From a virus: a stretch of 31,038 bases of DNA. The position numbers were made by a program, and so were the translations under genes. The stretch covers positions 1-31,038 of IMG/VR virus record IMGVR_UViG_3300037840_000031; one strand, written 5' to 3'. Under the pieces are notes generated by a model. It did not search any database. It saw only the letters and a list, made by a program, of their open reading frames with translations, and was not told the origin of the DNA. Shown here one piece after another: positions 3,296 to 31,038 of this stretch; the first letter of the stretch is position 1, and each line of letters opens with the position of its first letter.

Positions 3296-3705
3296 GGCTG
3301 CTCCCTCCGATACAACGGTGGCCTTGTCGCCTGCTGCGCGTTGTCCACCGCCGCCTGAGCCGCCACCTGCTGCCGGAAATCCGACTCAGCTTCATCCGCT
3401 GCGAGCCGGTCCTGCTCCAGCCCGGTCGCGTCCGCCAAACGTCGTGCCGCCACCGCCAGCTTGCCGCGCACGAGGGACATATCGCGGTTGACCAGCTTAT
3501 GAGTTGCCAGCGCGACAGCCTTGGTGTCGGTCACCGCCTGCACGGCCACGGCGTTCGCGTGATCCTGCTTACGCTCGCGGAGTTCGCTCGCATCCGCCGC
3601 CGCCTTGAGCCTGCTGCCGTTGCGCCACTGGAGGAAGCCGAGCGCGACGGCCACAAGGAGTCCCACCGCGTCTTTCACCATGTCGTATTGGAGTTCGGCG
3701 ATCAT
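3292..3705 (-). CDS. membrane-anchored coiled-coil protein, 137 aa
   Basis: Unrecognised. One hydrophobic segment (VKDAVGLLVAVALGFLQW, about 9-26) near the N-terminus, then a long charged helix (ASELRERKQDHANAVAVQAV, LVRGKLAVAARRLADATG) ending in a polar tail. Topology: short outside or inside N-terminus, one span and a soluble helical domain. Following the spike, it could be a lysis accessory (spanin-like) or holin, but lacks a lipobox and no partner is evident. ATG 3705 overlaps the spike stop; the longer frame to 3741 is in spike DNA. Confidence 0.62.
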   Translation of the reverse strand: MIAELQYDMVKDAVGLLVAVALGFLQWRNGSRLKAAADASELRERKQDHANAVAVQAVTDTKAVALATHKLVNRDMSLVRGKLAVAARRLADATGLEQDRLAADEAESDFRQQVAAQAAVDNAQQATRPPLYRREQP

Positions 3706-6700
3706 TGTATCTGGACGCTGATTCCGACCGCCCCGCTCCACGCGGCGGACGTATTGTTGCTAACGCAGAAGCAGCCTAGATTCGTGATGCTCGCATTGGT
3801 AAACGTGTCCGCGAGGTCGGTGGATTCCCACGCCGTCAAGCTGCCGTTGCCGGTGAATGTCACGGTCATGCTTGGGCAGACTATTCCGTTAGTGACAAGG
3901 AACACGACCACGTTGCTGCCGCTCCCCATCGCGCCGGACGCCTTCATCCGCGCTACGAGGTTCGTTAGCAAACCGACACGACCGAGAGGTGACTGGACGT
4001 AGGAAACCGTGGTGCCGTTCGTGGTGCCGTTGAAGCTCACGTAATTGAGGCCGCTCGCGTAGGATGAATACGGCATTAGACCTCCAATGACAGTCGGTGG
4101 TATCGGCTGGTAGGTCTGATCCCCGCGAAGGAATGATTGGATGCTCGCAGTGCCAGTCCCGAGTGCCGCAGTCGGCACCTGGCCCGCGCCGGTCAGCGTC
4201 GTCGGCACAACTGCGGTCAGGTTCGCCCCGGTGATCGTCGGCGCGTTCGTCCATCCCACCGCGCCGTTTCCGACGTTCGCAAGAACCTGGCCGATGGTGC
4301 TCGTGTTTGTGGACAAGACTCCGGCGGTGCCAGCCTGTATGTTCGTCAGCCCGGAGCCGTTGCCGGTGAACAAAGCTGCCACTCCATTCGTAGGAATTAG
4401 TGTGACCAAAGCACAACCCAAAGCAGGAACGCTGATCGTGAAAGAACCACTCTGAGCCCCGTAATCCTTCTTCTCCCACACGCTGTAGGCATCATAATAG
4501 CCGTTCGTGCTCATGCCGGGTATGGTGGAGAAGTTCACCACAAGGTTGCTCGCATTGTTAGTTTCGTTCGCGAACATGACGGCTTCGGAACCCCCAGAAA
4601 GAGCGCGGGCAAAGCAACTGGTATTAGTGTATCCGTTGTCGAACACCATGACCGGCGGCGTCTGCAAAGGATCATTCGCAATTGCCAGCATCGCCGTGTT
4701 GGTGAATATCTGTAGTGCCTGAGTGCTCCAAGGAGTGTTCGTATGGACGTTAATCTCGATGAAGCTGAGAGTCATAAGGTTGGCCGACACTTGGAGTTGC
4801 GCCACGTTGGTTGTCGCAAGGCCAGACCCATTCGTTCCATCGTTCCATGCATTGTAGCCTCCCGGCCCATAGTGGCCCGGCCCACAAGTGGGATCGTAGT
4901 TGGTGAACGCCACACGAAAACGGTTCATTACCTGTACGGCTACGTTGGTTGGAGGCCCGGGCAGAATGCCGTTGCCGATGCCGAGCTGATCCACGTTGTA
5001 AACATTGATTGAGTCTCCAAGTTCCGGGATAGTCTGCCCCAAGTCGCCAACGAGCATCATCAGGCTCATCGGGGATAGCGGAGTGCTTCCGGCGTGAATT
5101 ATCGGTCCCCAAAAGTTCCACGGATACGCTTGCGTGGGGAAGCTGGTCTGTGTTCGGTCCATGTCTGGCAACTGCATTGCGTTCTGAAGAATGCGGGCCA
5201 TCTGCAAATACTGTGCCGGGCCTCCATCACCCCGGTCGGATGCGCGTAGGGAATTGCAGTGCAACTCATAGAGTTCGTCAACGTCCAATCTCGCCGTATT
5301 CGGCAGGATGCAAGGAGTGTTAAACCCGCTCGGTCCATTGAACACTCCATTCCAATCCACCGTCATTTTGTTGGTTATGATGGTGTCAAAATAAAGAAGT
5401 GCATCCCATCCAAAGCCGAAGGCCGTGAAATTAGTGTAAAGGTTGGTGCCGGAAGGCCACGTAGTCGTATTGATCTGCAAACGGCCATTGCCGTCGCGGG
5501 TGCTCTGGAAAAGGTTTCCGCTGTCCTGAACATCAATGATGACCGGCTGCGACAGCGCATTTGTGAAAAAACCTTGAATGCCGTTGGTTACAAGGCAATA
5601 AATCGTGTTTGTCAGGTCAATCTGCTTGGTGTTGTAATTGTCCCCAGTCCCCCCGGTCATAGACACGTAAAACGGAATGTGCGGCATCATCGCTCCAACC
5701 TGTGTTCGCGATGGCGGTAAGTCATAGGCCGCGCTCTCCCCCCCGCCGCCATAAGCGGTCTGGATCGAACGCGCCACCTGTCCAAACGGAGTCTGGTCAT
5801 TGATATTCACACCGCTGGATAAATCCTGGCCGTAAACACTCAGCATGTTAGAAGGTTGATACACCCCACTGGATGAAAATTGTCCCATACACCATGCCGC
5901 TCCATCTCCGCCTGTCAAAGACGGGAATCCGGTATTAGTCCCATTCCACGCCATTGTGGACATCGTTGCATCGATGTTAAACACTTCTCCACCACCGCCT
6001 GTAACAAATACCCAACCACCAGCATCTTGATCGCCAACAGGAGGAATGGCTGCACCTTGTTGGTTGAACGTGCTGCTACCAGATAGAGGATACCAATTTA
6101 GCCACATGGTCCCAGATGTTCCTCCGCCTCCGGCGTTACCGTTGATGCGAAGCGATGCCGCGAGTTGTCGATTATTCACGTCAAGATTGGTAATGGCGTT
6201 CCCTTGAGCCGCCATGAAATTACCAGCCTGAGCGGTATTGGCGAAGTCCGAGCCGTTGTTGACCTTGAGCGCCGGAGCCGCTGCTCCATTCGTCGCCGCC
6301 TGAGCCGCTGCGTTCGCAGCGTTCGTCGCATCGCTCATGTGCGCCCACGTGCTCGCGTCCGGTGGCACGTTGTCGTCCCAGTAAACCAAGCCACCGTCCG
6401 TTACCACCGAGAACGCATTCCCTGCGTTGTCCCCGATTTCCAGCGACCCGTAGATCGAAAACGCATCGCCCCCAAAGAACTGAACAGACCCGTTCGTCAT
6501 CGTGCCGTTGCCGAACAGGTTTGGAGCTTTGAGGATTGAATTGGTCAGGCTCGTCCCGATGCCATAGCCGTTCGTGATCGCGATGGAGTTTGTTGCGGAT
6601 GAGATTGGCCCCAACAACGCATTGATCTGCGCCTGCGTGTAATAGTTGGTGGTAGGGTCCGGTGGCAGCGCCGCAGCATTGGTGTAGAGCGTCCATCCAT

Positions 6701-7052
6701 CCACGGTCCCGCTCGTATTTGTCCCGACGTAGAGCGGAAACACCGTTCCCGGAAACCCGGAGAGCGACATGTTGTAGCTGCCGTATTGAATGTTGGTGAA
6801 CCACGCGTAACCATTGGTGTCCGTGATGCGTGTAATCGGATTCTGACTGATGCCGATCTGCGTTCCATTTCCCAAGGTGACAATGCGCGGGTTCGGCGCC
6901 ACCAACGTCAAGGTTTCCGTCATCCGATTCTGCGGTGAGATTCCAAGGTCGCCCACCGGAAAGTAAAGTGCGTTGGTATTCGGAGGGATTGTCTGCGCCA
7001 CCGCTCCAGCGACCTGCATCAACAGAAATAGGATTGAGAAGAGCTTTCTCAT
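3702..7052 (-). CDS. large fibre/spike protein with signal peptide and GH27-like domain
   Basis: A 1116-residue protein, the largest here. The first 19-20 residues (MRKLFSILFLLMQVAGAVAQ) form a signal peptide. Residues ~20-440 are Asn/Thr/Gly-rich fibre-like sequence with a helical part (about 240-260). Residues ~445-888 resemble GH27 alpha-galactosidases: VIIDVQD and TRDGNGRLQI (504-527), FGFGWDALLYFD, GPGGYN, LQIFTNTAMLAIANDPL, and a C-terminal beta part VFDNG...VPALGCALVTLI. Yet the loops that normally carry the Asp nucleophile (KxDxC) and acid/base (DPDM) read LRASDRG and NAWNDG. Residues 895-1000 carry fibre motifs FTGNGSGLTNI and SIQSFLRGDQTYQ. It overlaps the next gene by ATGA. Confidence 0.8.
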   Translation of the reverse strand: MRKLFSILFLLMQVAGAVAQTIPPNTNALYFPVGDLGISPQNRMTETLTLVAPNPRIVTLGNGTQIGISQNPITRITDTNGYAWFTNIQYGSYNMSLSGFPGTVFPLYVGTNTSGTVDGWTLYTNAAALPPDPTTNYYTQAQINALLGPISSATNSIAITNGYGIGTSLTNSILKAPNLFGNGTMTNGSVQFFGGDAFSIYGSLEIGDNAGNAFSVVTDGGLVYWDDNVPPDASTWAHMSDATNAANAAAQAATNGAAAPALKVNNGSDFANTAQAGNFMAAQGNAITNLDVNNRQLAASLRINGNAGGGGTSGTMWLNWYPLSGSSTFNQQGAAIPPVGDQDAGGWVFVTGGGGEVFNIDATMSTMAWNGTNTGFPSLTGGDGAAWCMGQFSSSGVYQPSNMLSVYGQDLSSGVNINDQTPFGQVARSIQTAYGGGGESAAYDLPPSRTQVGAMMPHIPFYVSMTGGTGDNYNTKQIDLTNTIYCLVTNGIQGFFTNALSQPVIIDVQDSGNLFQSTRDGNGRLQINTTTWPSGTNLYTNFTAFGFGWDALLYFDTIITNKMTVDWNGVFNGPSGFNTPCILPNTARLDVDELYELHCNSLRASDRGDGGPAQYLQMARILQNAMQLPDMDRTQTSFPTQAYPWNFWGPIIHAGSTPLSPMSLMMLVGDLGQTIPELGDSINVYNVDQLGIGNGILPGPPTNVAVQVMNRFRVAFTNYDPTCGPGHYGPGGYNAWNDGTNGSGLATTNVAQLQVSANLMTLSFIEINVHTNTPWSTQALQIFTNTAMLAIANDPLQTPPVMVFDNGYTNTSCFARALSGGSEAVMFANETNNASNLVVNFSTIPGMSTNGYYDAYSVWEKKDYGAQSGSFTISVPALGCALVTLIPTNGVAALFTGNGSGLTNIQAGTAGVLSTNTSTIGQVLANVGNGAVGWTNAPTITGANLTAVVPTTLTGAGQVPTAALGTGTASIQSFLRGDQTYQPIPPTVIGGLMPYSSYASGLNYVSFNGTTNGTTVSYVQSPLGRVGLLTNLVARMKASGAMGSGSNVVVFLVTNGIVCPSMTVTFTGNGSLTAWESTDLADTFTNASITNLGCFCVSNNTSAAWSGAVGISVQIQ

Positions 7053-11094: not shown

Positions 11095-11429
11095 ACAGAT
11101 TTGAACTCTCCTTTCGTGAGGTAGCCGTGCCAGCGGCAAGGAGTCAGCTTCTGGATTGAAGGAGTGAGGGTGGGTTGCGCCTCATTGCCATCCCATTGCC
11201 ATGATGAGCCAGTGTAACCCGGTCGGATGGGAGTGAATCCGACGCTGCCGCAGCCGCATGGACAGACGAAGCGGAGTCCCGATCGTTTATCATCCGAGCC
11301 ATTGACCCACCATGCCATACCGGGAGCAAGCGTCTTAGTCCACAGCGAGTTGTCTTTTGGGTCTTGGAAGATGTCCTCACCTTCCATGGAGTTCACCCGC
11401 ACATCGAAAATAATTGGCACTGGATTCAC
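11091..11429 (-). CDS. DUF6527-like protein
   Basis: A 112-residue product with a GTG start at 11429 (GTGA overlap with the upstream stop) and ribosome site GGAGGTGGGGA. The features C56, C58 and C60 (VCPCGCGSVGF), WQWDGNEAQPTLTPSI and C98-RWHGYLTKGEF resemble DUF6527, a small zinc-type family common in phage head-tail clusters with no firm function. The upstream extension to 11654 lies within the Mu-F gene and is rejected. Confidence 0.75.
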   Translation of the reverse strand: MNPVPIIFDVRVNSMEGEDIFQDPKDNSLWTKTLAPGMAWWVNGSDDKRSGLRFVCPCGCGSVGFTPIRPGYTGSSWQWDGNEAQPTLTPSIQKLTPCRWHGYLTKGEFKSV

Positions 11430-12742
11430 TCCCCACCTCCCAGCCGCGTGTTCCGCAACTGTTCCAGCGTCAGCAGATTTTCCTTCTGCCCAATCAACTG
11501 CGCGTCGCTTATGTCCCCGCGCTGCCAGTTCGCATAGGCACCTTTCCCGAACGCCTGTTCCAGTTCCTTGTCGGTGAACTTGTCGAGGTAATCGGAGAAT
11601 GAACCAGTGGCCGGTGGCTCCGCGGCATCCTGTGGAACTAATGAACATCGGCACCCCCAGTGCGCAGGGGGATCACCGGGATATTCGTCCGCGTCGCCGA
11701 TTGGTTCATTGTCCTGATCCCACATCTGCCCGTCGAGGTGTTCGCAATAGGGACAAGTATTGGCGTCCATCACCGCCAGCCAAACGTAAACGATTTGCTT
11801 CTCGTCCGGATTATCTTCCTCGTCATCGTCCTCCGGCAGTTCCTCCGCTCCCAACATTTCCACCGCGTTCTGCACGGCGTTGATTGCGGCGTGAATCACT
11901 TTCTCAAGCGAGTTCTCGGTGCCGTCAAAGAGCCGGATGCCAATCTGTAACGACTTATCCGCATTGGCCGGGGTCGGTGCGATGTCCGCGGCTTCCAGCG
12001 CGTGCGAGTGCCCGGCATGTCCCGCAGTCACCGGTCCGCCTGCCACCCGCTGCCGTATCTCTGCGGCGGTGTCCCCATTCTCCACTCCCGACCGCACCGC
12101 CGCCTTGAAACGAAAGAGCAGGGTGTTTGCGATGTAGTCGAGGTGATCCGAGAGCGGAGCGCCGAGCACCGAAGTCTCACCGATACCACCGAGCTTTGCA
12201 TCCCCGCGTTTCACTCCATGATGCTCGGCCAAGTCCTGTTGCCCGTGGTCGTCAAGGATGTCACCAAGTTCCGACAGCTTGCGGTCCAGATCCTTTTTGA
12301 GCGCGTTAAAGGTCTTGGTGGTGGTGGCCGCAGCCTTTGCGAACGTCGCATCCAGATTCTTTTCGGTCGCCTGACCCGCCAACGTCAGCAGCTTCGGTTC
12401 CAGCGCCGAAATCTGTTTATGCGCCTCTTTCACCAGCCAATTACCGACGCTCTTGAGCATCGCGGTGCGCTTCACCGCTGCCACCGCCATCTTTTGGTTC
12501 GGCGTGTCGGAGATTCCCGCTTCAATCCGTTGCGCGAGAGTGTCCGCGCCGATGGCGTGCAGCGCCCGAGCGAATCGTCGTTGCGGATGTTTGAATGATC
12601 CGTGCAGGGAATCCAGCAGTTCCCCGACCTTGCCCGGCTCCCGACCAGCCTTCAAAGCCGATAGGTCAGCGCAGACCGCCCCCTTCACAGCGTCGGTGAC
12701 CGCCCCAAGGGTCTTTGCCGCTATGGTCGCTGCTTCGCTCAT
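11426..12742 (-). CDS. Mu gpF-like head morphogenesis protein
   Basis: A 438-residue minor head protein of the Mu F/SPP1 gp7 type, present in a few copies near the portal and needed for head assembly. The family signature is near the C-terminus: VWLAVMDANTCPYCEHLDGQ with C330 and C333, then PPAHWGCRCSLVP with H361, C364 and C366, likely a zinc site. The N-terminal 200 residues are helical. The sequence GGPVTAGHAGHSHALEAAD carries a His-rich stretch. In Mu this gene precedes the protease; here it follows the connector, an altered order. Both ends are ATGA/GTGA overlaps. Confidence 0.88.
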   Translation of the reverse strand: MSEAATIAAKTLGAVTDAVKGAVCADLSALKAGREPGKVGELLDSLHGSFKHPQRRFARALHAIGADTLAQRIEAGISDTPNQKMAVAAVKRTAMLKSVGNWLVKEAHKQISALEPKLLTLAGQATEKNLDATFAKAAATTTKTFNALKKDLDRKLSELGDILDDHGQQDLAEHHGVKRGDAKLGGIGETSVLGAPLSDHLDYIANTLLFRFKAAVRSGVENGDTAAEIRQRVAGGPVTAGHAGHSHALEAADIAPTPANADKSLQIGIRLFDGTENSLEKVIHAAINAVQNAVEMLGAEELPEDDDEEDNPDEKQIVYVWLAVMDANTCPYCEHLDGQMWDQDNEPIGDADEYPGDPPAHWGCRCSLVPQDAAEPPATGSFSDYLDKFTDKELEQAFGKGAYANWQRGDISDAQLIGQKENLLTLEQLRNTRLGGGE

Positions 12743-14745: not shown

Positions 14746-17112
14746 TTAGGCGCTGGTCCCGACGATTCCGGCGCGGACATCCCCGGCGGCTGCGCCAAGG
14801 ATGACTTCCGGCCGCCATTCCGCCCAGCCACCTTGCAGGTTGACATACTGGACGAGCATGATGCTGATCTTGGTGTCCGGGTCCGTGACCGTGGTCACCG
14901 AGCCGGGAATCATCACGCCAAGGGTCTGCGTGAATTCCTGCGGCAACCGTGACTTGATGATCGCCGCCGCTTTCTGGAACGCGAAGAACACGATATTGTT
15001 CGTGGTCGCGCCGGTGGAGGGAGTCGAGGATGGGAGGTAAGGCGCCTTGTAAGGCGCAAACCCGCTCAACTTCGGCAACCGGGCTTCGGTGAGGAATTCC
15101 CCGGCTTGATTGGTGGTGTCCTTGGCGCTGGCCGCATACATGAAACTGAGGCGTGGGTCGCCGCGCAGTTTCGCGTAATAGGTCGGTTTCAGCATGATGC
15201 CGCGATCTTCCTCGGGCACCTTGAGCGTGGTGAACATGGCGTCCAGCGTGTCAAGGTCGCCCATGCTGAAGTCACCGTACGCTTTCACGTAGGTCGGTGC
15301 ATTGGCGAAGGTCGGGTCCGTGGCCGCGATGGTCGCATACGAGTTGTAGGTTGCCGCCGTTGCCAGGTTCGTCAGCATGTTGACGAAGTAACCCGCGAGC
15401 GCCTTGATTGCGAGCACGCTCTGCTCATCGAAGAGCCGGCGCGTGGTGGCCCCGAGCACGTTCTGGCCGAAGTTGATCGGCACAGCCACGTAATCGGTCA
15501 GGGTCAGGCTCACGTCCGTCGTTTGCGCAGGTGAGACCGTGTTCCAGCCGAGCGGACGCCCGGTTCCATCCGTCGCCGCATTGTATTTCTGCACCGCCTG
15601 TTGCGTAACGATGCGGGTCGTTTCGGTCTGGTTGAGCAGTCCCGGAGTGTCGCTGAAATCCGTATAGAAGTTCAGCAATTCGGGATACTTGTAGGCGAAG
15701 AACGGCAGGGTGCGTTGCAGCACCAAGGTTCCGCTCAACACCCCCAACACGTTCACCGGCGCGTTGTTGTCGGTGTAGTCCGCCGCCTCAAGGGCGTGCC
15801 CGGAACATTCGATCTCCCGGCTCATGGGACTCTTTTGACGGAAGCCGACCCTGCGGCCGATCTCCATCACCGTGCAGTCCTGCCAGTGATCCATGTTCGT
15901 CGCCAGCTCCGTCTTGTAGAAGGAGGCGGCTTGCAGCGCGAGCTTGCCCTTCAACTGGTAGGAGTGGATACGATTCGTGGGGTCAATCTGCACGTTCGCA
16001 TTCGCGGCCACGAGTTCGCCGTAAGCGCGAAACGCGCCGTCGAAGTCGAACCCGGAGGTCAAGGTGTATTCCTTGCGCTGTTTCCCGGATGCGTCCAAGG
16101 CGGCGGCATTCGGTGTGGTGCGCCCGGCAAGCGGGTCGCGCCCATTCGGCGCGGCGGCGTCGAGCGGTGCCAGCAGCGGGATCAGGTCCGGGTCTTTCAT
16201 GAACTTGGCCTTGTAGCTGGCCTGCACCTCGGTATCCCGCGGCGCAATCTTTTGGGCCTTGACCATGCGCTGCACGGCGGCTTCCGCGTCGCCTTCGAGG
16301 CGCTTCGCATTGGCCGCTTCGAGGGCGGTGGTTTTCTCCTGGGCCTGAGCCAATTCGATTTGAACGGCGATTTCCCGACTCTCGGCGGATGCGGCCTTGA
16401 GTTCGGCCTTGCTCAGTGCATCGGTCTTTTGGTTAAGACCGGCAATGGTCAGCTCCAGCTTTTGGTTGCGCGCTTGGAGCTCGGCGACTGTTTCTTTCAT
16501 TGTGTTCCTTTGGTTGTTATTGCCGGGTGCTCCGGCGTTCCCCGGCAACGAAGCCGGAAATTGTTTTGCGTTCCCCGCCCACAGCGGGCTCATGTTCTGG
16601 AAAGCGGGATCGTTCTCCAGCGCCCCCATGTTCGCCTTTGCTTCCTCGCAGCAGATCACATGCACCGGGTTGTCCGGGTCATCGCGAATTGCGTCCACAT
16701 GAAACGTGGGTGAGAAGGTGCGGAAATCTTTTCCCTCGACCGCCTTGCGCCCGGAATCGGTCCATTCGCCGGATGCCCAGATGCCTGTTGCCATGGAGCC
16801 GGTGGCGTCAATGCGTGTATCCCAGAAAAACTTGTCCGGCCAGAAAGCAGCGACACCCTCCTTGTGTTGAAGTGAAAAGAATGGCTTTTTGCCGGACGCG
16901 GTAAGAACCTTGCGCTGCTTCTCCAATTCATCCACCGCGCCGGATTCCACTTCCACGCACACCGTCACCGGCCGCCCGTTCTGGCTCGGTGTGATCGTGG
17001 TCACGCCTGACGGCATATACATGCAAATGTTATCCTCAAGAGCCGGGATGATGGAGCGGACCGGGTTTGCCTTGGCGCTGGAGGCCGCTGTGAGTTGGTA
17101 GCTGGTGGTCAT
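14746..17112 (-). CDS. fused prohead protease, scaffold and major capsid protein
   Basis: A 788-residue polyprotein. Residues 1 to ~190 resemble the Mu gpI-type head protease: GRPVTVCVEVESGAV, WASGEWTDSGRKAVEGKDF and RTFSPTFHVD. Residues 205 to ~300 are a coiled-coil scaffold (AELQARNQKLELTIAGLNQK, LAQAQEKTTALEAAN). The remainder, about 330-788, is capsid-like, with NFGQNVLGATTRRLFDEQSV and LKPTYYAKLRGDPRLSFMYA. ATG 17112 has GGAGGACTAAC upstream. An internal in-frame ATG at 16500 has its own AAAGGAACACA site and would give a 584-residue scaffold-capsid product in excess over the protease form. In most phages these are separate genes. Confidence 0.88.
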   Translation of the reverse strand: MTTSYQLTAASSAKANPVRSIIPALEDNICMYMPSGVTTITPSQNGRPVTVCVEVESGAVDELEKQRKVLTASGKKPFFSLQHKEGVAAFWPDKFFWDTRIDATGSMATGIWASGEWTDSGRKAVEGKDFRTFSPTFHVDAIRDDPDNPVHVICCEEAKANMGALENDPAFQNMSPLWAGNAKQFPASLPGNAGAPGNNNQRNTMKETVAELQARNQKLELTIAGLNQKTDALSKAELKAASAESREIAVQIELAQAQEKTTALEAANAKRLEGDAEAAVQRMVKAQKIAPRDTEVQASYKAKFMKDPDLIPLLAPLDAAAPNGRDPLAGRTTPNAAALDASGKQRKEYTLTSGFDFDGAFRAYGELVAANANVQIDPTNRIHSYQLKGKLALQAASFYKTELATNMDHWQDCTVMEIGRRVGFRQKSPMSREIECSGHALEAADYTDNNAPVNVLGVLSGTLVLQRTLPFFAYKYPELLNFYTDFSDTPGLLNQTETTRIVTQQAVQKYNAATDGTGRPLGWNTVSPAQTTDVSLTLTDYVAVPINFGQNVLGATTRRLFDEQSVLAIKALAGYFVNMLTNLATAATYNSYATIAATDPTFANAPTYVKAYGDFSMGDLDTLDAMFTTLKVPEEDRGIMLKPTYYAKLRGDPRLSFMYAASAKDTTNQAGEFLTEARLPKLSGFAPYKAPYLPSSTPSTGATTNNIVFFAFQKAAAIIKSRLPQEFTQTLGVMIPGSVTTVTDPDTKISIMLVQYVNLQGGWAEWRPEVILGAAAGDVRAGIVGTSA
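16500..16512 (-). promoter_or_regulatory. internal ribosome binding site and start within capsid ORF
   Basis: On the minus strand AAAGGAACACA stands directly before ATG 16500, in frame with the full ORF at residue 205, exactly where the protease part ends and the scaffold coiled coil begins. This matches the nested protease/scaffold starts known in lambda (C/Nu3) and Mu (I/Z). Confidence 0.7.
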
Positions 17113-17113
17113 G

Positions 17114-18709
17114 TTAGTCCTCCTTTTTCTCCGTTGGCGCTGCGGTGGGAGTGGTCTGCGGCGGTGCCATGGGTTTGAACGCTTCATTCCCTTTGTGCGC
17201 CTCGACCGCTGCAAGGTGCCCGCGATACTTGGTGTCATGCGCCGCCGCTTCCGCGCTGAGTCCGTTCATCTTTGCGTGCTCGGCGGCGATGGAGTGCAAT
17301 GAAGCCGCGTCCTGATGCGCCTTGAGACAGGCGCCGGTTGCTTCCATGGCGTCCTTTGCCGCCGCCTGATACTTGTTCATGGACGCCTTGCCAGCTTCGA
17401 GCGCGGTGGATGGGGTGGCGTTGCTGGCCTTGGCGCTGGCGGCTTTGTCATTATGCTCAATGGCCGCCTTGAAGTGGAGGTTGGCTTGGTGCGCATGGGC
17501 GACTTCGCGATTCCGATCCCCATCTTCTTCCGCTTGCATTGACGCCTTTTGATGCGCCTTTGCCGCGGCGAAATGAGCATCGGATGCGGCGCGGTGGTCC
17601 TTTGCGGTGCCGGAATCATTTGCTGCCTTTGTTTTCTTCTCCGCCTTTTCATCCTTCTCGCTGTAAGCCCTCTCAAGGTGAGTATATTGGTTGATACCCT
17701 CCGGGTTAGACGCGTTCAGCGCCCGCGTCTTTGCAGCTGCTGCCGCTCCAATCGCTTCCGGTTCCGCGTCCTTCCCCATGTCGAACACGTAATCGTAATC
17801 TGTCACGCGCTCGACCTGTTTCGGTTCACCCTCCACTTCCACGTTATCCGCTGAGACGGTGAAGCTGACGCAGTAGAGTTTTCCGTCTGCTCCCTGCACA
17901 ATCGCTTCCCACGATTCACCGGCTTCGTGCGCGGGAGCGATCACGTCGCTGACCCAGACGCTGGAGCACGGATACTGTGCTCCTTCCGGTTTCTGATTCA
18001 GCACCGCGATATCGGACACCGCATCCCGGATTTTCTGTTGCAGATCATTAAGCGAGAACCCACCGTCTTTCACCGATGCTTCAAGAGCCGCGTTCTTTCC
18101 CATGCGTGCAAAGGCTGCGCTTTGTAGCTTTTGTGCGGCCTCGGGTGTGGTGAAGGATGGGTCTTGATACCCTTCCTCGTTCCGTATCTTGGACGCCTTT
18201 TCTACATGCGCCGCTGCGGTGGCCTCGTGCAATGCTGCCGCTTCCTGATTCTGTTCGGCGTGCGCGGCGGCGGCAGCTTTCCCATGCGCCTGCGCCGCAA
18301 CGTCGTGATGTTCACCATCGCCATCCGGTGACTTGTTCGCCTTGGTGCTGGCGGCGTAAGCGAGTTCCCGGAGAGCGCCATAGTCGAGCACTTCATCCGG
18401 GTCGGTGATGTCGGCGACTTCGGGCGCTGGCTTCTCATCCTTTGCCATGATGGCCGCTGCCACCTTACCATTCCCGGCCATGCACGCGTTCATTGCGCCC
18501 ATGTGTTTCTGCGCCATCTTGTCGTGCGCCTGCATTTCGTCCGCGAGTCCAATCGCCTTGGCGTGGACGCTGGCGGCAAGGTGCGATGCGGCGGCTTGGC
18601 GATGATTGTGCGCGGTGGGCATTCCCTCGGCGGTCTTGCTGGCATCAGCGGCCTCCTTGGCGGCTGATGCATAATCCTGTTTGTAATCTTCGGAAGTGTC
18701 GGTGCTCAT
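17114..18709 (-). CDS. Ala/His-rich helical-repeat protein with central beta domain
   Basis: A 531-residue protein lying between portal and capsid genes. Two long regions (about 1-170 and 350-510) consist of degenerate helical repeats with regularly placed Ala and His (HNHRQAAASHLAASVHAKA, AAAKAHQKASMQAEEDG, HHDVAAQAHGKAAAAAHA). Between them (about 215-335) is a compact domain with SSVWVSDVIAPAHEAGESW and DGKLYCVSFTV, resembling a small beta domain seen in other phage head proteins. I know no family name for the whole. Position suggests a scaffold, internal head or DNA-entry protein. Start ATG 18709 has AAAGGAATAAT upstream; the portal's last codons supply it. Confidence 0.75.
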   Translation of the reverse strand: MSTDTSEDYKQDYASAAKEAADASKTAEGMPTAHNHRQAAASHLAASVHAKAIGLADEMQAHDKMAQKHMGAMNACMAGNGKVAAAIMAKDEKPAPEVADITDPDEVLDYGALRELAYAASTKANKSPDGDGEHHDVAAQAHGKAAAAAHAEQNQEAAALHEATAAAHVEKASKIRNEEGYQDPSFTTPEAAQKLQSAAFARMGKNAALEASVKDGGFSLNDLQQKIRDAVSDIAVLNQKPEGAQYPCSSVWVSDVIAPAHEAGESWEAIVQGADGKLYCVSFTVSADNVEVEGEPKQVERVTDYDYVFDMGKDAEPEAIGAAAAAKTRALNASNPEGINQYTHLERAYSEKDEKAEKKTKAANDSGTAKDHRAASDAHFAAAKAHQKASMQAEEDGDRNREVAHAHQANLHFKAAIEHNDKAASAKASNATPSTALEAGKASMNKYQAAAKDAMEATGACLKAHQDAASLHSIAAEHAKMNGLSAEAAAHDTKYRGHLAAVEAHKGNEAFKPMAPPQTTPTAAPTEKKED

Positions 18710-18710
18710 A

Positions 18711-21116
18711 TTATTCCTTTGTGGGAACGGTTTCCTTGCCGTCCGGTGAACTGAAGATGAGAGTATCAATGGTGAATTTGGTTCCAACGAGTCCCCCCCA
18801 GCCGTCCAGCTTCGCGTTGCTTCCCTTTTTCACGTAAGCAACCGTCAGGTGCGGGTGATACTCGTGCTCGCTCGGTGTGATGTCTGCTGCCAGCTCCTTT
18901 GCCAAGGAATCATGCAGCGCCTCGGCTCCGGGTGAAACGATGTCGAATTTGAGAACGTCGTAGTCCGGGCACTCGAACCGCGACAGATTCCCGAGCGTGA
19001 AGGTCACAGGTCCGCTTGAGGTGATCTTGGATGGGTCGAAGCCGGGGTTGAATCCAAACAGGATTGTCACATGCGGCTCATCGTCCAATCCATCGGCAGC
19101 CAAGGTTCCGGCTTTCACCGCCTTCTTACCGAACGCGACAATCTGCTTTGCCACCGACTGCGGCGCCATGGCCATGAGACATCCGAATTTCCCGGCGGAA
19201 CTCGGCCGGGCAGCAGCGGCTTCCAGCGCCTGCGCCAGCCCTGGGTCTGCGGCCACGGCGGCTTCGATGCCCGGTAGATCGCGCAGGAACTTTGTCAACA
19301 TTCCCTTTTTCACCACCACATCCTCGACCGCCCGTATTGCTTCCAGCCGCACGAGTATCGGTGTAATGGTCGCCTGCAAAGCGTTCGACGCTTTCAACGC
19401 CAGTTCCACCCGCGCAGCAGCCGCTTCATTCGCGTCATCGGACCCGCTCGGCTCCTGTTGCTGCTGACCCTGTTGCGACTGTGCCAACGCGGCCTTGGCG
19501 GTGGCTTGTTGGGTCTTCTGCTGTTGCGCCTGCTGCTTTTCCTGCGCGGCGGCCTGCGCCCCAAGCACACCGGTATCCACTCCGGCGATTGGTTCACCCT
19601 CTTGCGGTTTTGGGATGCCGTATTTGCGGTAGAGGTGCGACTCCGGCACGTCCATGATCTGCACCAGAGCCGAGTCCCGTTGCGCGTCCGTCAATCCCCC
19701 TTCCTTGACATCCACCAGCTTGCACACCGGCGCTTCCATGTCACCGCCCTCACCAAAGTTGACGGCGAGGAAGTAAGGGATGAGTTGCAGGTTGATGACC
19801 GATGCGACATAAGTTGCCCCCGAGTCAATGCAGGTATCCTTGACATCGGACTCCGTTTCGCCAAAAGCCTTTCCACCGCCTTTACCCATGGAATCGTGCT
19901 GCCCGCCGGTCATGGTCTGGTGCAGGATCACCTTGCGCTTCTGGGAGTCGGCGAAGTGAAAGAGGAATGCTTGCGGAGACTGGCCTCCGGTGCCGGTGGC
20001 AGTTTCAAAAGCGATCTCGACGCCCTCGGGAACCAGCGCCCATGCCTGGCTTCCCATCGCCTGCAACATTTGCCGGATTTCCTCTTTCTGTGGCTCGCTC
20101 ACTCCCGGCTTGTAAGTTGCTTTGCGGAACGGAACGCCGAACAGTTGCGCGGTGGCCATGAGGAAGTCGCCGCAGAAGTTCGAGGCGCACCACCACCACG
20201 CCAGACACCGAAGCTGAGACGAGGCCAGCACTGAACCGGTCTTGCTCTTGTCAATTCCAATGAGGAACTTGTTCGCGGGAAACTCCACGAATTGATTCGG
20301 GAGCATGGTGCCGGACACCGTTGAGTAGAACCCTCCCTCGGTCAAGGCCGCCTTGGGATCGAACTTCATCTTCTTGATCGTCCCGGTCTTGTCCCGCGCC
20401 ACCTGCGGCGGCATCAGCAACTTGAGACGGCCACCCTGATCCCACGCGTAACACACCGGGTTGACCCAGTAGCCGGCCCGCGGGACAAGCACTTGCCCGT
20501 CAAATCCGGGTAGCTGGAGCAGATTCAATTCGCCGGTGCCATAGGTCTGATACCAGTCGAGTTCAATGAGCGATTGACCATGAAACCGGGCGGCGAGCAA
20601 ATCCTTGATGATGCCGCGCATGTCGCATTCATCGGAGGCTGCATCCGGCCGCATGGAACGGATCGCGGCGGAAAACATCTTTGCCTTTTCCACGGCTGAC
20701 GGTGTCGGTTCCTCGTCCTCGTCGTGGTATGCTTCAATGACCACCCGCTTCGACAACACGCCCTCTTGAAACTCGCCGATGCAGCTTTGTATCTCCGGGT
20801 CCGTGTCCCACATGAGATCGAATAGCTGGTGCATCTGCACATGGTTCCCGGCGAGCCCACCGCGTATCACCGATTCAATGTAGCTCGGTGTGATAGCCGA
20901 CATATACGGCATGAGCCAGTTGCCAACCGATTCCCTACGCAGCACGCCGGCGAGCGACGGTAGAAGATTGGTTGCGTCCGGTGTCAGCGTCTGTTTCGGT
21001 GTCGAGAGTGCTTTTGCGGCGAGGACCGAACGTGCGGTGAAGCCGGGGGAAGCGACTCCGCCGCTCCGAATCTTCGGAGCCTGTTTCTGTAACTGATAAC
21101 CAAAAAGACCGGCCAT
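18711..21116 (-). CDS. portal protein (DUF935/Mu gp29-like) fused to 2H phosphoesterase domain
   Basis: An 801-residue protein. Residues 1 to about 500 resemble Mu gp29/DUF935 portals (YIESVIRGGLAGN, LMWDTDPEIQSCIGEFQEGV, LLAARFHGQSLIELDWY, RKYGIPKPQEGEP), forming the ring through which DNA enters the head. A Gln/Ala linker (about 515-565) follows, then a helical stretch. From about 640 there is a second domain with two histidine motifs, HVT (H682) in DEPHVTILFGF and HLT (H756) in HPHLTVAYV, the signature of 2H phosphoesterases. The length exceeds typical ~500-aa portals because of this domain. No clear ribosome site precedes the ATG. The domain assignments are motif-based; the substrate is unknown. 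Confidence 0.88.
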   Translation of the reverse strand: MAGLFGYQLQKQAPKIRSGGVASPGFTARSVLAAKALSTPKQTLTPDATNLLPSLAGVLRRESVGNWLMPYMSAITPSYIESVIRGGLAGNHVQMHQLFDLMWDTDPEIQSCIGEFQEGVLSKRVVIEAYHDEDEEPTPSAVEKAKMFSAAIRSMRPDAASDECDMRGIIKDLLAARFHGQSLIELDWYQTYGTGELNLLQLPGFDGQVLVPRAGYWVNPVCYAWDQGGRLKLLMPPQVARDKTGTIKKMKFDPKAALTEGGFYSTVSGTMLPNQFVEFPANKFLIGIDKSKTGSVLASSQLRCLAWWWCASNFCGDFLMATAQLFGVPFRKATYKPGVSEPQKEEIRQMLQAMGSQAWALVPEGVEIAFETATGTGGQSPQAFLFHFADSQKRKVILHQTMTGGQHDSMGKGGGKAFGETESDVKDTCIDSGATYVASVINLQLIPYFLAVNFGEGGDMEAPVCKLVDVKEGGLTDAQRDSALVQIMDVPESHLYRKYGIPKPQEGEPIAGVDTGVLGAQAAAQEKQQAQQQKTQQATAKAALAQSQQGQQQQEPSGSDDANEAAAARVELALKASNALQATITPILVRLEAIRAVEDVVVKKGMLTKFLRDLPGIEAAVAADPGLAQALEAAAARPSSAGKFGCLMAMAPQSVAKQIVAFGKKAVKAGTLAADGLDDEPHVTILFGFNPGFDPSKITSSGPVTFTLGNLSRFECPDYDVLKFDIVSPGAEALHDSLAKELAADITPSEHEYHPHLTVAYVKKGSNAKLDGWGGLVGTKFTIDTLIFSSPDGKETVPTKE

Positions 21117-23335: not shown

Positions 23336-24793
23336 TTAGCGCCCCGGCCATCCCGGTCTCCCAGGCCACTGTCTCGGCACCGTGAGCCGCGGCGGCACCG
23401 CTGTTCCACCACCCGATTTCATTCCCGCAACGTCTCCGGGTCCAATGGCACCGGTCGGTGTAGCGAGCGCGTCCTGTAGATACCTGATTGCATCCATGGC
23501 GTGATCGTCCTCTTTCCTTGGCACATCCGTTCCGGCGTCCGATCCCGGCTTCGGTTTGTAGATATACGATTCAAATTCGTTGATGACATTAACGCACCCT
23601 GGGTCCACGGTGAGCCTCGGCCGCCCGTCGCCCTGCACCTTGAGACGGTTCTTTACCAGCGCGATTCCATCCTCGACGCTTCCCTTGCCTCCCACCGCGT
23701 TGATGCCTCGTGCCTGCAATGAAGCAATGAGTCCGGCGGCGGATTCGTCCACGGCGCAGAGTTCGTATTTCCTTCCCTTGTCTTCATTCCACCACAGCAC
23801 AGCCGCCGCCACATGATTCTCCGGTATCACGCCGCGTTCGTAGAACTCCCGGAAGATATGTTGACGACCATCCGAGTCCTCCCCGACATCCAGTATCACC
23901 GCGGGATTGGTGTAGCCTTCGTCCATGGTCAGGAAGAACCGTTTCATCTCACTGCGTAGCCGCACCTGCACATGGTCGCTTGGTATTCCGGTCTGCGCCG
24001 AGTTAAAGGTGTCATACACCGCCCCTTCCGCCGTCGCCCAGATCCCCTCAAGCAATCTCATGCGCCGAACGCCAGTCAATCGGTCAGCCAAGGCCGCCAG
24101 CCGCTTTGCTCCTTCCGCCGTCAGGTTTCCGGCTTCATCGTAAATGCTCGGGTTATCCTTGTGCGTGGTGGTGAAGAGCCGGAGCCGCCCCTGCGCCGCC
24201 CGTTCCTTGATCCAATGTTTCGAGCCGGCCGGGTTGCAGTCGCCAAAGAGTTGCGCATTCTCAACCACCGCACCACGGCCGCTGGTTCTGGTGCCAAGCA
24301 ACTCCCAATCGTTCAAGGTGAACTCTTCAACCTGACAGCCGTAGATGAAATCCCGCTCGCTGGACAGCACCCGCTCCGGATGATCCATGCCACCGAGCCA
24401 GATCACGCTTCCGTTGGGATAGATGTAGCGTTGCGGTGTTTCCCCACCAAACACCCGCACACCCTGATTCGATATTACCTTGGCAAAGGTCTTGAGAACC
24501 GTGCCTGCCAGTGACGTTGCGGTCTTGCGGAGGATCGCCCCCTGTGCTCCCGGACACAGCGCCGCGGTCACGTGCGCCTTGAGGCACATTGCGAAGGTCT
24601 TGCCGGTATCTGCGGGACCGGAGTTGATCAACTCCGGTTCCTTGCAGCCGAATGCCGCCCGGTTTCCGCCGCGCAGGATGATGTCGGTTGCGCTCGGTTT
24701 GACGACTTCAACCTTGGCCGCCGGTTTCCGGGTCTTCGGTGGTTTGGGTGATTGCAGTTTGGAGGGCATTCGACTTGAGTTTGGGAAGTTCAT
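23336..24793 (-). CDS. terminase large subunit
   Basis: Packaging ATPase and headful/cos nuclease. ATPase motifs: Walker A GPADTGKT (residues 59-66), Walker B region DFIYGCQVEEF (148-158), and motif III GDCNP (184-188). The RNase H-like nuclease domain follows, with acidic residues D291 (LTMDEGY), D349 (CAVDESAAG) and the DDHAMDAIRYLQ motif (429-440), an arrangement like PBSX/XtmB-type terminases. The length of 485 is normal. The start could be 24793 or ATG 24769; neither has a clear ribosome site, so expression probably depends on coupling with the small subunit. Confidence 0.95.
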   Translation of the reverse strand: MNFPNSSRMPSKLQSPKPPKTRKPAAKVEVVKPSATDIILRGGNRAAFGCKEPELINSGPADTGKTFAMCLKAHVTAALCPGAQGAILRKTATSLAGTVLKTFAKVISNQGVRVFGGETPQRYIYPNGSVIWLGGMDHPERVLSSERDFIYGCQVEEFTLNDWELLGTRTSGRGAVVENAQLFGDCNPAGSKHWIKERAAQGRLRLFTTTHKDNPSIYDEAGNLTAEGAKRLAALADRLTGVRRMRLLEGIWATAEGAVYDTFNSAQTGIPSDHVQVRLRSEMKRFFLTMDEGYTNPAVILDVGEDSDGRQHIFREFYERGVIPENHVAAAVLWWNEDKGRKYELCAVDESAAGLIASLQARGINAVGGKGSVEDGIALVKNRLKVQGDGRPRLTVDPGCVNVINEFESYIYKPKPGSDAGTDVPRKEDDHAMDAIRYLQDALATPTGAIGPGDVAGMKSGGGTAVPPRLTVPRQWPGRPGWPGR

Positions 24794-25304
24794 CCTGTGT
24801 CACGCGCAGGGTCATGGTCAGACTCTCGCCTTCAGGTGTCACCACTTCGGTCCTTGAGCTGTCGCGCCACTGCGCCGGTTTCCGATTCTTGAGCCAGAAG
24901 ATGCAGGCGGTGGTGTCGGGTGGATAATGTTCGATGTATTCCTTTGTCACTAGATTCCCATTGACGGTGATAAACTTCGTAGCAGGGCAGTCGTAGCCTT
25001 TTGCCCGCTGGTAGAGAGATTTGACCACCGCTTCATCGGCTTGATCCTTGCTTTCCTTTAAGGTGGCAAGTAGCTTTGGGTTCCTGTCGCGCCATTGTCG
25101 AAAGGCGTTGCGTGAAATCCCAAGTGCTTCCGCCATCTGCGTATCAGTAGCGCCGAGCCGCCCGAGCATTTGCACCACCCCCGCCGTTGACACCCGGTCC
25201 AGTTTGCTTTTATGGACTCCGTTGCCTTTGGTTTTCACCACCGGCTCCCGTTTCGGTTTCTGCTTCTGCTTCGGTTTCGGTTTCTGCTTCTGCTTCGGTT
25301 TCAT
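24708..25304 (-). CDS. terminase small subunit
   Basis: DNA-recognition subunit of the packaging motor. After a basic low-complexity start of Lys, Pro and Gln (residues 1-20) comes a helix-turn-helix (DTQMAEALGISRNAFRQW, about residues 54-71). Next is the region AVVKSLYQRAKGYDCPATKF with YPPDTTACIFWLKNRKP, a signature common in small terminases. The order just before the large subunit supports this. The Lys/Gln/Pro start is encoded by a 24-base tandem repeat. The C-terminus overlaps the large-terminase frame by more than 60 bases in another frame, an unusually long overlap for this window. Confidence 0.85.
   Translation of the reverse strand: MKPKQKQKPKPKQKQKPKREPVVKTKGNGVHKSKLDRVSTAGVVQMLGRLGATDTQMAEALGISRNAFRQWRDRNPKLLATLKESKDQADEAVVKSLYQRAKGYDCPATKFITVNGNLVTKEYIEHYPPDTTACIFWLKNRKPAQWRDSSRTEVVTPEGESLTMTLRVTQDELPKLKSNALQTAITQTTEDPETGGQG
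25255..25302 (-). repeat. tandem repeat, two exact 24-base units
   Basis: Two perfect copies of a 24-base unit made of hexamers in the order ggtttc, tgcttc, tgcttc, ggtttc (plus strand). They encode the Lys-Pro-Lys-Gln start of the small terminase. Hexamer periodicity keeps the frame whatever the copy number, so the tail length can vary without a frameshift. Confidence 0.9.
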
Positions 25305-29211: not shown

Positions 29212-29621
29212 GGCTGGCCTCCTTCCCAAAGCCCCAGCGTCCTCAAGAACGCTTCGGCGCGTTGCGCGGCGGTGGCGTTGGCCACGTCCCAAATTACCTT
29301 TACAACGCCGGGGTTGTTATTGAGCGATTCAATCGGCGTGTCTTGGAACAGGACACCAAGCAAATGATAGGTGAAAGCCGTCCGCTGCTCATCCGTGAGA
29401 GTCGCCTGAGCCTTCGCCACGGCTCCGAGGTCTGCGACGTAGTTGGGGACTGGCTCGTATGCTTGATCGTCTTGTGGCTTGTCTTTATCTCGCGGCGGTG
29501 TTCCATGCAATGTTTCGGGACCGCCAAGCAACTGTTTGCCGCTGGCTATGTGCCGATACATGCCAAACCTCGACCACCCGCACGCCTTGGCAATCGCCAC
29601 GTTCTGCGCCTTGGGTGTCAT
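29208..29621 (-). CDS. phage ABA sandwich domain protein
   Basis: A 137-residue protein resembling the small 'phage ABA sandwich' family. Supporting features are an N-terminal segment containing KAQNVAIAKACGW, a central VPNYVADLGAV stretch, an FTYHLL segment, and the C-terminal AAQRAEAFLRTLGLW typical of that family. The role of the family is unknown to me beyond its frequent place in phage accessory or early regions. I chose ATG 29621 rather than 29642 because it overlaps the folE stop as ATGA, the dominant junction type here; its own stop overlaps the next gene the same way. Confidence 0.72.
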   Translation of the reverse strand: MTPKAQNVAIAKACGWSRFGMYRHIASGKQLLGGPETLHGTPPRDKDKPQDDQAYEPVPNYVADLGAVAKAQATLTDEQRTAFTYHLLGVLFQDTPIESLNNNPGVVKVIWDVANATAAQRAEAFLRTLGLWEGGQP

Positions 29622-30352
29622 CCATGTCCTCCGTTTCTGCAATGGTTGAAGAATTCCGCCCTGACCGCCGGCGCCTTAAATACGCCAAGCAAACAGCTTG
29701 TCACCATTTCGCTCTGTTGCTTCCGCACACCGCGGCATGCCATGCAGAGATGTTTGGCGATGATGGTTACTCCCACCCCTCGCGGATTCAGGTGCTGCCG
29801 CATTGCCTCCGCGATCTCCTGCGTCATCTTCTCCTGAATCTGCAACCGCCGCGCAAAGCAATCCACCAGCCGCCCCATTTTCGAGAGGCCGACCACCCGC
29901 GTCCGAGGAACATAAGCGACATGCGCCACACCGAGGAATGGTAATAGATGATGCTCACACACCGACACGAATTCCATATTTCGGCACACCACCATTTCAT
30001 CGTATCCGGCTCCATCGAAGTCGGTGGCGAGGATGGTTGCCGGGTCTTGGCCGTAACCCTGGGTTAGTTCGTCCCATGCCTTGACCACGCGCCGGGGGGT
30101 TTCCTTGAGCCCTTCCCGGTCAGGGTCTTCCCCGATGTAGGAGAGCAGGGTGCGGACGGCGGTGGTTGCTTCTGCTTCGGTGGCGGGTTCCGTAGCCCGG
30201 TTGAGCACATGTCCCATCACCACCGCCAGAATCCCGCTTTTTCTGCGCTCTGGGGTGCGTTCTACGGCTTTGGGAGCCTTTTTGGCATGTTGACCCATAT
30301 TTTGCCTTTGGATTGATTTGAGGCGGGTTTCTGCGCGATGTAGCTGGGTCAT
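29618..30352 (-). CDS. folE: GTP cyclohydrolase I (FolE)
   Basis: Converts GTP to dihydroneopterin triphosphate, the first step of both folate and 7-deazaguanine synthesis. The family signatures are all present: CEHHLLPF with zinc ligands C132 and H135, RLQIQEKMTQEIA, and HLCMACRGV with the third zinc ligand C203 (244-aa numbering). The catalytic core starts near residue 60. The first ~55 residues are basic and not part of the usual fold. The outermost start overlaps queE by ATGA. A second in-frame ATG at 30298 (MGQHAKK) has a better ribosome site, AAAGG six bases upstream, and may be the real or an additional start. Lying next to queE, it most likely feeds preQ0 synthesis. Confidence 0.95.
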   Translation of the reverse strand: MTQLHRAETRLKSIQRQNMGQHAKKAPKAVERTPERRKSGILAVVMGHVLNRATEPATEAEATTAVRTLLSYIGEDPDREGLKETPRRVVKAWDELTQGYGQDPATILATDFDGAGYDEMVVCRNMEFVSVCEHHLLPFLGVAHVAYVPRTRVVGLSKMGRLVDCFARRLQIQEKMTQEIAEAMRQHLNPRGVGVTIIAKHLCMACRGVRKQQSEMVTSCLLGVFKAPAVRAEFFNHCRNGGHG

Positions 30353-31038
30353 ACGCCGCGCCTTGCTCCCCAGATGAGCGCGTGAACCCTCATGCAGAGG
30401 TTAAAGCCGTGTTTTTTGCATTCCTCAGCGACCCACGTAGCTTTATCCAGCACTTCATCCCGGGTCCTCCCCTCCGGCATGAGCCAGACCTTGCCCAACG
30501 GAAGTTCATGCGCCTCGGCCAGCATGAGGACATCGTCCACATCACCCGGTTTAGTCACCACGAATTTATATTGCACGTCATTGCCGTAGCGTTGCGCCTG
30601 TTGCCAGAACGCCGGCATGGTCGCCGGGCGTAGGTTGCGGAGATGCATGGCCGCTTCCTTGCCTTGGGTTTTTTGGGTCGGTGTCGAGCTGGCCAGCTTT
30701 GGACTCACGCTCCAAAGATTCGGAGCCACGTGCGGGTCGAACCGGGTGCCGTTGGTTTCAATGGTGACTATGTGACCCTGCATCACCAGCTCGTGACAGA
30801 GGTTGCCAATCTCTTCCGGGAACATCATTGGTTCCCCGCCGGTGATGACCACATGCTTGACCCCGGCCACGGCCGCCTGATTCACCAACGCCTCAACCAT
30901 CTCCTTTTTCCCTTCCGGTTTCCAGCTGGTGTATGGAGTATCGCACCACCAGCAGCGAAGGTTGCAACCGCTGGTGCGGATGAAGAATGAAGGGACGCCG
31001 GTGAACTTACCTTCACCCTGGATGGATTTGAATGTCTC
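30349..31038 (-). CDS. queE: 7-carboxy-7-deazaguanine synthase QueE, 5' end cut by window
   Basis: Radical SAM enzyme that converts 6-carboxytetrahydropterin to 7-carboxy-7-deazaguanine in the preQ0 pathway. The reading frame runs off the right edge; 229 residues are visible and the true start lies outside. The visible part opens with FKSIQGEG, then the CX3CX2C iron-sulfur/SAM motif CNLRCWWC (visible residues 25-32) followed by DTPYTSW. Further on are the GGEP SAM-binding motif, ETNGT, SVSPK, WLMPEG and a C-terminal WGARRGV, all typical of QueE. It overlaps folE by 4 bases (ATGA), so the two are probably co-translated. Family assignment is from motifs I recognise; use of the product for phage DNA modification rather than host queuosine is inference from phage context. 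Confidence 0.93.
   Translation of the reverse strand, partial: ETFKSIQGEGKFTGVPSFFIRTSGCNLRCWWCDTPYTSWKPEGKKEMVEALVNQAAVAGVKHVVITGGEPMMFPEEIGNLCHELVMQGHIVTIETNGTRFDPHVAPNLWSVSPKLASSTPTQKTQGKEAAMHLRNLRPATMPAFWQQAQRYGNDVQYKFVVTKPGDVDDVLMLAEAHELPLGKVWLMPEGRTRDEVLDKATWVAEECKKHGFNLCMRVHALIWGARRGV

Follow-up and report, generated by a model that had tools for sequence, protein, structure and literature searches.

A Mu-type phage portal protein with a C-terminal 2H phosphoesterase domain as a putative cargo of the phage head

We analysed a viral DNA stretch of 31,038 nucleotides (IMG/VR record IMGVR_UViG_3300037840_000031, positions 1 to 31,038; hereafter the window), in which a gene on the minus strand encodes a portal protein fused to a 2H phosphoesterase domain. 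The coding sequence (18711..21116, minus strand, as are all features in this and the next paragraph) is one continuous ORF of 801 aa plus stop, and the plus strand of the same interval contains no long ORF, its translation being full of stops. The portal core (residues 97-501, 19614..20828) belongs to the Pfam family PF06074 Portal_Mu (E 4.9e-54) and matches the PHROGs portal family phrog_113 (E 9.5e-52). It is followed by a Gln/Ala-rich linker, read from the translation (about residues 517-565, 19422..19568), and by a helical portal tail (about residues 566-640, 19197..19421). This tail was delimited by alignment with the portal L002, which lacks the 2H domain and terminates where the tail ends, and by helices in the full-length structural model that have low to middling confidence. 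The 2H domain itself occupies about residues 643-798 (18723..19190). The sequence-only reading of this locus had described a separate C-terminal domain joined by the Gln/Ala linker; the separate domain stands, but the linker does not join it, as about 75 residues of helical tail intervene. The two histidine motifs which that reading had placed 74 residues apart are exactly so spaced: HVT at residues 682-684 (19065..19073) and HLT at residues 756-758 (18843..18851), with both H and T invariant in 54/54 aligned relatives. Six-frame translation of the window gives 121 open frames of at least 100 aa, and a pair of H-x-[T/S] motifs 60-95 residues apart occurs in the portal-2H ORF alone.

The gene lies in a head-gene context. 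The large and small terminase subunits are encoded at 23336..24793 (phrog_2, E 1e-20) and 24708..25304 (phrog_309, E 2.2e-40). The next gene after the portal, whose ATG lies just past the portal stop, encodes an Ala-rich helical protein (17114..18709) for which we found no family match in Pfam or PHROGs. A single 830-aa ORF (14746..17238) combines a Mu-like head protease with a major head protein (PF10123, E 2.3e-9; phrog_328 protease, E 1.1e-14; phrog_283 major head protein, E 9.2e-7), and a MuF-like head morphogenesis protein is encoded at 11426..12742 (phrog_241, E 1.7e-26). No tRNA or Rfam RNA was found in the window. The same portal-2H chain was recovered from another metagenome on an independent contig, L008, with 53 % identity (Portal_Mu, E 2.6e-52; 2H, E 3.5e-9), and there too the gene after the portal encodes a similar Ala-rich protein.

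The profile match, the predicted fold, the structural comparison and the invariance of the catalytic residues all bear out the 2H assignment. Residues 700-764 match PF13563 (2_5_RNA_ligase2) with E 3.3e-7 and 30.9 bits, exceeding the curated cut-off of 27, so the motif layout is beyond chance. The AlphaFold2 model of the domain alone, built with 54 aligned sequences, reached a pLDDT of 95.3 and a pTM of 0.89 and predicts the duplicated alpha/beta fold of 2H enzymes. Every one of its best structural matches is a 2H enzyme: ThpR/LigT (4qak, VIA Z 15.1), CPDase (15.0), YjcG (13.7), FBB1 Acb1 (7t26, 13.5), BCSR5 Acb1 (9q2g, 13.3), Usb1 (about 13) and MHV ns2 (12.9). As these values lie near one another, the fold gives no substrate name. 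Seven residues are invariant in the 54 sequences (H682, T684, G688, Y753, H756, T758 and Y761), which argues for a working enzyme. A search of the PDB with the lone domain by phmmer returned nothing useful, and only the family profile gave matches. The nearest was 9q2g, annotated 'Anti-CBASS protein Acb1' from Burkholderia phage BCSR5 (E 9.7e-7), followed by an archaeal LigT-like protein (7.7e-5) and FBB1 Acb1 (1.2e-4). Across the 54 clade members, Pfam identified PF13563 in 54/54, Acb1 in 47/54 and LigT_PEase in 37/54.

The full-length model (mean pLDDT 70.6) is less certain than that of the 2H domain alone. Its residues 46-505 align to the portals of JBD30 (8rka, Z 21.8) and Mu (9knu and 9khx, Z about 21), which identifies a portal of this type; the portal fold stops near residue 505, at the crown in the capsid interior, and the 2H domain has no counterpart in the aligned part. 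Residues 641-801 of the same model align to 2H enzymes. The model of the 2H domain alone superposes on a 2H structure over its full length (151 residues at 2.5 A), and this suggests that the predicted geometry between the two catalytic histidines is as in 2H enzymes. The C-terminus of a portal exits at the crown. Since the C-terminal crown end of the Mu/JBD30 portal type faces the capsid interior, the 2H domain should be located in the head. The JBD30 portal is a dodecamer with its crown and wing domains inside the capsid (PMC11445458), and the match to this portal type means that up to twelve copies of the domain at the portal vertex, as the sequence-only reading had it, follow from the architecture.

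The combination of 2H and portal is not limited to this lineage. The search for other portals with the domain recovered L008, L061, L162 and L171, which carry the same 2H clade. The L061 portal is of the Phage_portal_3 type (phrog_146, E 5.8e-53), and those of L162 and L171 belong to phrog_2662 (E 9.9e-40 and 7.7e-36). In L061 (3-4145) the 1381-aa chain comprises the Phage_portal_3 portal, 2H and a topoisomerase IB, with GGKGSGN-type motifs between the domains. The portal-2H ORF of L171 (1070-4444, 1125 aa) is extended at its N-terminus by a long segment with matches to phrog_85 and phrog_32482, which may be an intein. The same clade is found on the MuF proteins of L029 and L105; that of L029 belongs to the head module of a phage whose separate Portal_Mu gene lies upstream. 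Most members of the clade are free proteins or parts of large polyvalent proteins, where ART-PolyVal and MuF domains accompany them. The close free relative in L034 adjoins ribonucleotide reductase genes, so the enzyme can do without a virion.

In a quick tree of 81 2H domains, in which many forks are weak, the portal-borne ones are in three places; three changes are needed to explain this and the well-supported branches force at least two. Fusion to a portal thus took place on at least two and probably on three occasions, each involving another portal family. The nearest neighbours of the window domain were the L008 portal and the MuF-type protein of L029.

Only the window and L008 carry 2H among about 40 related portals, and most of the others end a short way past the portal core. 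A GHxFHGNQ-type motif occurs in some that have a longer tail, and domains of polyvalent proteins were recognised in two tails: Kinase-PolyVal in L131 (6411-7835, E 5.9e-9) and LPD3 in L121 (6363-7160, E 2e-17). It is conceivable, though on balance doubtful, that the capsid-interior end of the portal in this phage lineage is an exchangeable cargo dock (for 2H, a polyvalent-type kinase and others), so that the DNA gate itself would carry a counter-defence enzyme in about twelve copies and release it together with the genome. A scan of bacterial genomes returned three related portals, all in Verrucomicrobia MAGs and all without 2H, and a weak match pointed to a portal relative in an Akkermansia phage.

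Fusions of 2H domains to MuF or portal proteins were described by Iyer et al. 2017, who proposed RNase activity or degradation of defence nucleotides (PMC5512222), and these fusions were restated later (PMC9503650). The architecture described there in words is the same as ours: 2H and portal are in one chain, and the clade is that of the polyvalent proteins, here found with ART-PolyVal and MuF domains. The architecture and the defence or RNase idea are therefore already published, and the window protein is a further example. However, no portal family or accession is given in the 2H passage of Iyer et al. 2017, whereas the window case is Portal_Mu and three portal families are involved. New are the Portal_Mu case itself, the portal relatives in Verrucomicrobia MAGs and, weakly, in an Akkermansia phage, the recurrence of the fusion across several portal families, and the variability of the portal tail, which in related phages bears other polyvalent domains. 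Neither this portal lineage nor the Acb1 of Burkholderia phage BCSR5 was the subject of any paper returned by literature searches. Of the characterised enzymes, Acb1 (PMC9117128; 7t26, 7t27, 9q2g) shares the 2H fold and the HxT/HxT tetrad and provides the nearest solved sequences by profile, but it is a small free protein and the window domain is fused to a portal. LigT/ThpR (4qak, 5ldm) and the 2',3'-cyclic phosphodiesterases (5h7e, 1jh6) share the fold with the top Z of about 15, but they are free cellular enzymes with about 13 % identity to the window domain.

Our preferred reading, to which we assign a probability of roughly 50 %, is that the window encodes a Mu/JBD30-type portal with a catalytically intact 2H domain as C-terminal cargo, borne in the head and acting in the host cell. 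A portal of this type would have gained the phosphoesterase, and up to twelve copies would be carried within the head on a flexible tail. Catalysis would be metal-free, of the acid-base type, by H682 and H756 on a phosphodiester assisted by a 2'-OH. The likely target would be either a cyclic oligonucleotide of host defence or the end of a cleaved RNA, the proposal being compatible with both classes. Portal rings normally remain in the virion, and delivery of 2H at infection therefore requires a release step. We infer that the domain is incorporated into the virion and released into the cell; release may take place at infection, for example by the head protease, or the enzyme may act late in infection, in the cytoplasm, from newly made portals. 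Entry into the cell and cleavage of cyclic nucleotides or RNA ends, as suggested in the sequence-only reading, is plausible and had been proposed earlier (PMC5512222); the domain assignment behind it holds, but the window domain has no match to the Pfam Acb1 profile (PF23474) at E 0.01. If the domain is virion-borne and active, a counter-defence enzyme would be present ahead of any phage gene expression, at a copy number that the portal ring fixes. With the isolated domain and its small relatives of about 180 aa, the substrate question of polyvalent 2H domains becomes directly testable.

A serious alternative, which we nevertheless regard as somewhat doubtful, is that the enzyme works mainly on RNA ends. 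It would open the 2',3'-cyclic phosphates that metal-independent nucleases leave behind, or act as a Usb1-like RNase, and so take part in the damage and repair of tRNA or mRNA in the infected cell. LigT, CPDase and Usb1 are among the top structures, and the RNase activity proposed by Iyer et al. 2017 (PMC5512222) is in the same direction. Members of the same 2H clade are joined to CCA-adding enzymes, with PolyA_pol head and RNA-binding domains, in L154 (2-4513), L155 (698-4831), L161 (2636-4411) and L173 (2666-5776); in L163 and L087 the partners are other nucleotidyltransferases. The CCA fusions suggest tRNA 3'-end repair for their sister branch, but in the tree they lie on another major branch than the window domain. 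RNA ligases are present in just 6-7/50 records with this 2H and none adjoins it, a rarity which is consistent with Iyer et al. 2017 and is weak evidence against repair. Moreover, action on RNA ends gives no reason for the location on the portal.

Rather unlikely, in our view, is a hydrolase of the Acb1 type that would cleave the cyclic di- and trinucleotides of CBASS 3' of adenosine and is made late within the portal, so as to be ready when CBASS fires. The solved sequences nearest to the clade profile are annotated as Acb1, the Pfam Acb1 family covers most of the clade as given above, and in T4 infection Acb1 is active at the time when CBASS sets in, which is late (PMC9117128). However, this family does not recognise the window domain itself at E 0.01, the structural Z to LigT and CPDase is equal or slightly higher, and the mapping of the aromatic base-stacking residues and of the C-terminal lid is uncertain at about 17-19 % identity.

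A role in packaging or structure at the portal, such as RNA clearance or portal assembly, would make the activity one of morphogenesis instead of counter-defence. We consider it improbable. The position of 2H on the portal agrees with it, as does Arthrobacter phage Salgado gp18 (L015, 4674-5795), a 2H-containing gene annotated as RNA ligase and flanked by the capsid protease and capsid genes. Nevertheless, a function needed at the portal is difficult to reconcile with a domain present on only two of the related portals mentioned above, replaced on others by kinase or LPD3 tails, and belonging to a clade mainly of free and polyvalent proteins. An assembly or frame artefact that merged separate portal and 2H genes lying side by side, conceivable in principle since a single metagenomic contig could be chimeric, has a negligible probability, as the ORF is unbroken and the next gene begins right past its stop, and it is ruled out by the independent contig L008, where portal and 2H are fused likewise and the gene downstream is related.

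Two other loci of the window were recorded. A 1116-aa protein (3702-7052) contains a Melibiase_C-like beta-sandwich (Pfam, E 9.3e-9) and, judged by its position, our guess is that it is a tail protein. At 29618-30900, genes for a GTP cyclohydrolase and a QueE-like radical SAM protein adjoin each other, as they do in 7-deazaguanine pathways, and this pair may possibly serve DNA modification.
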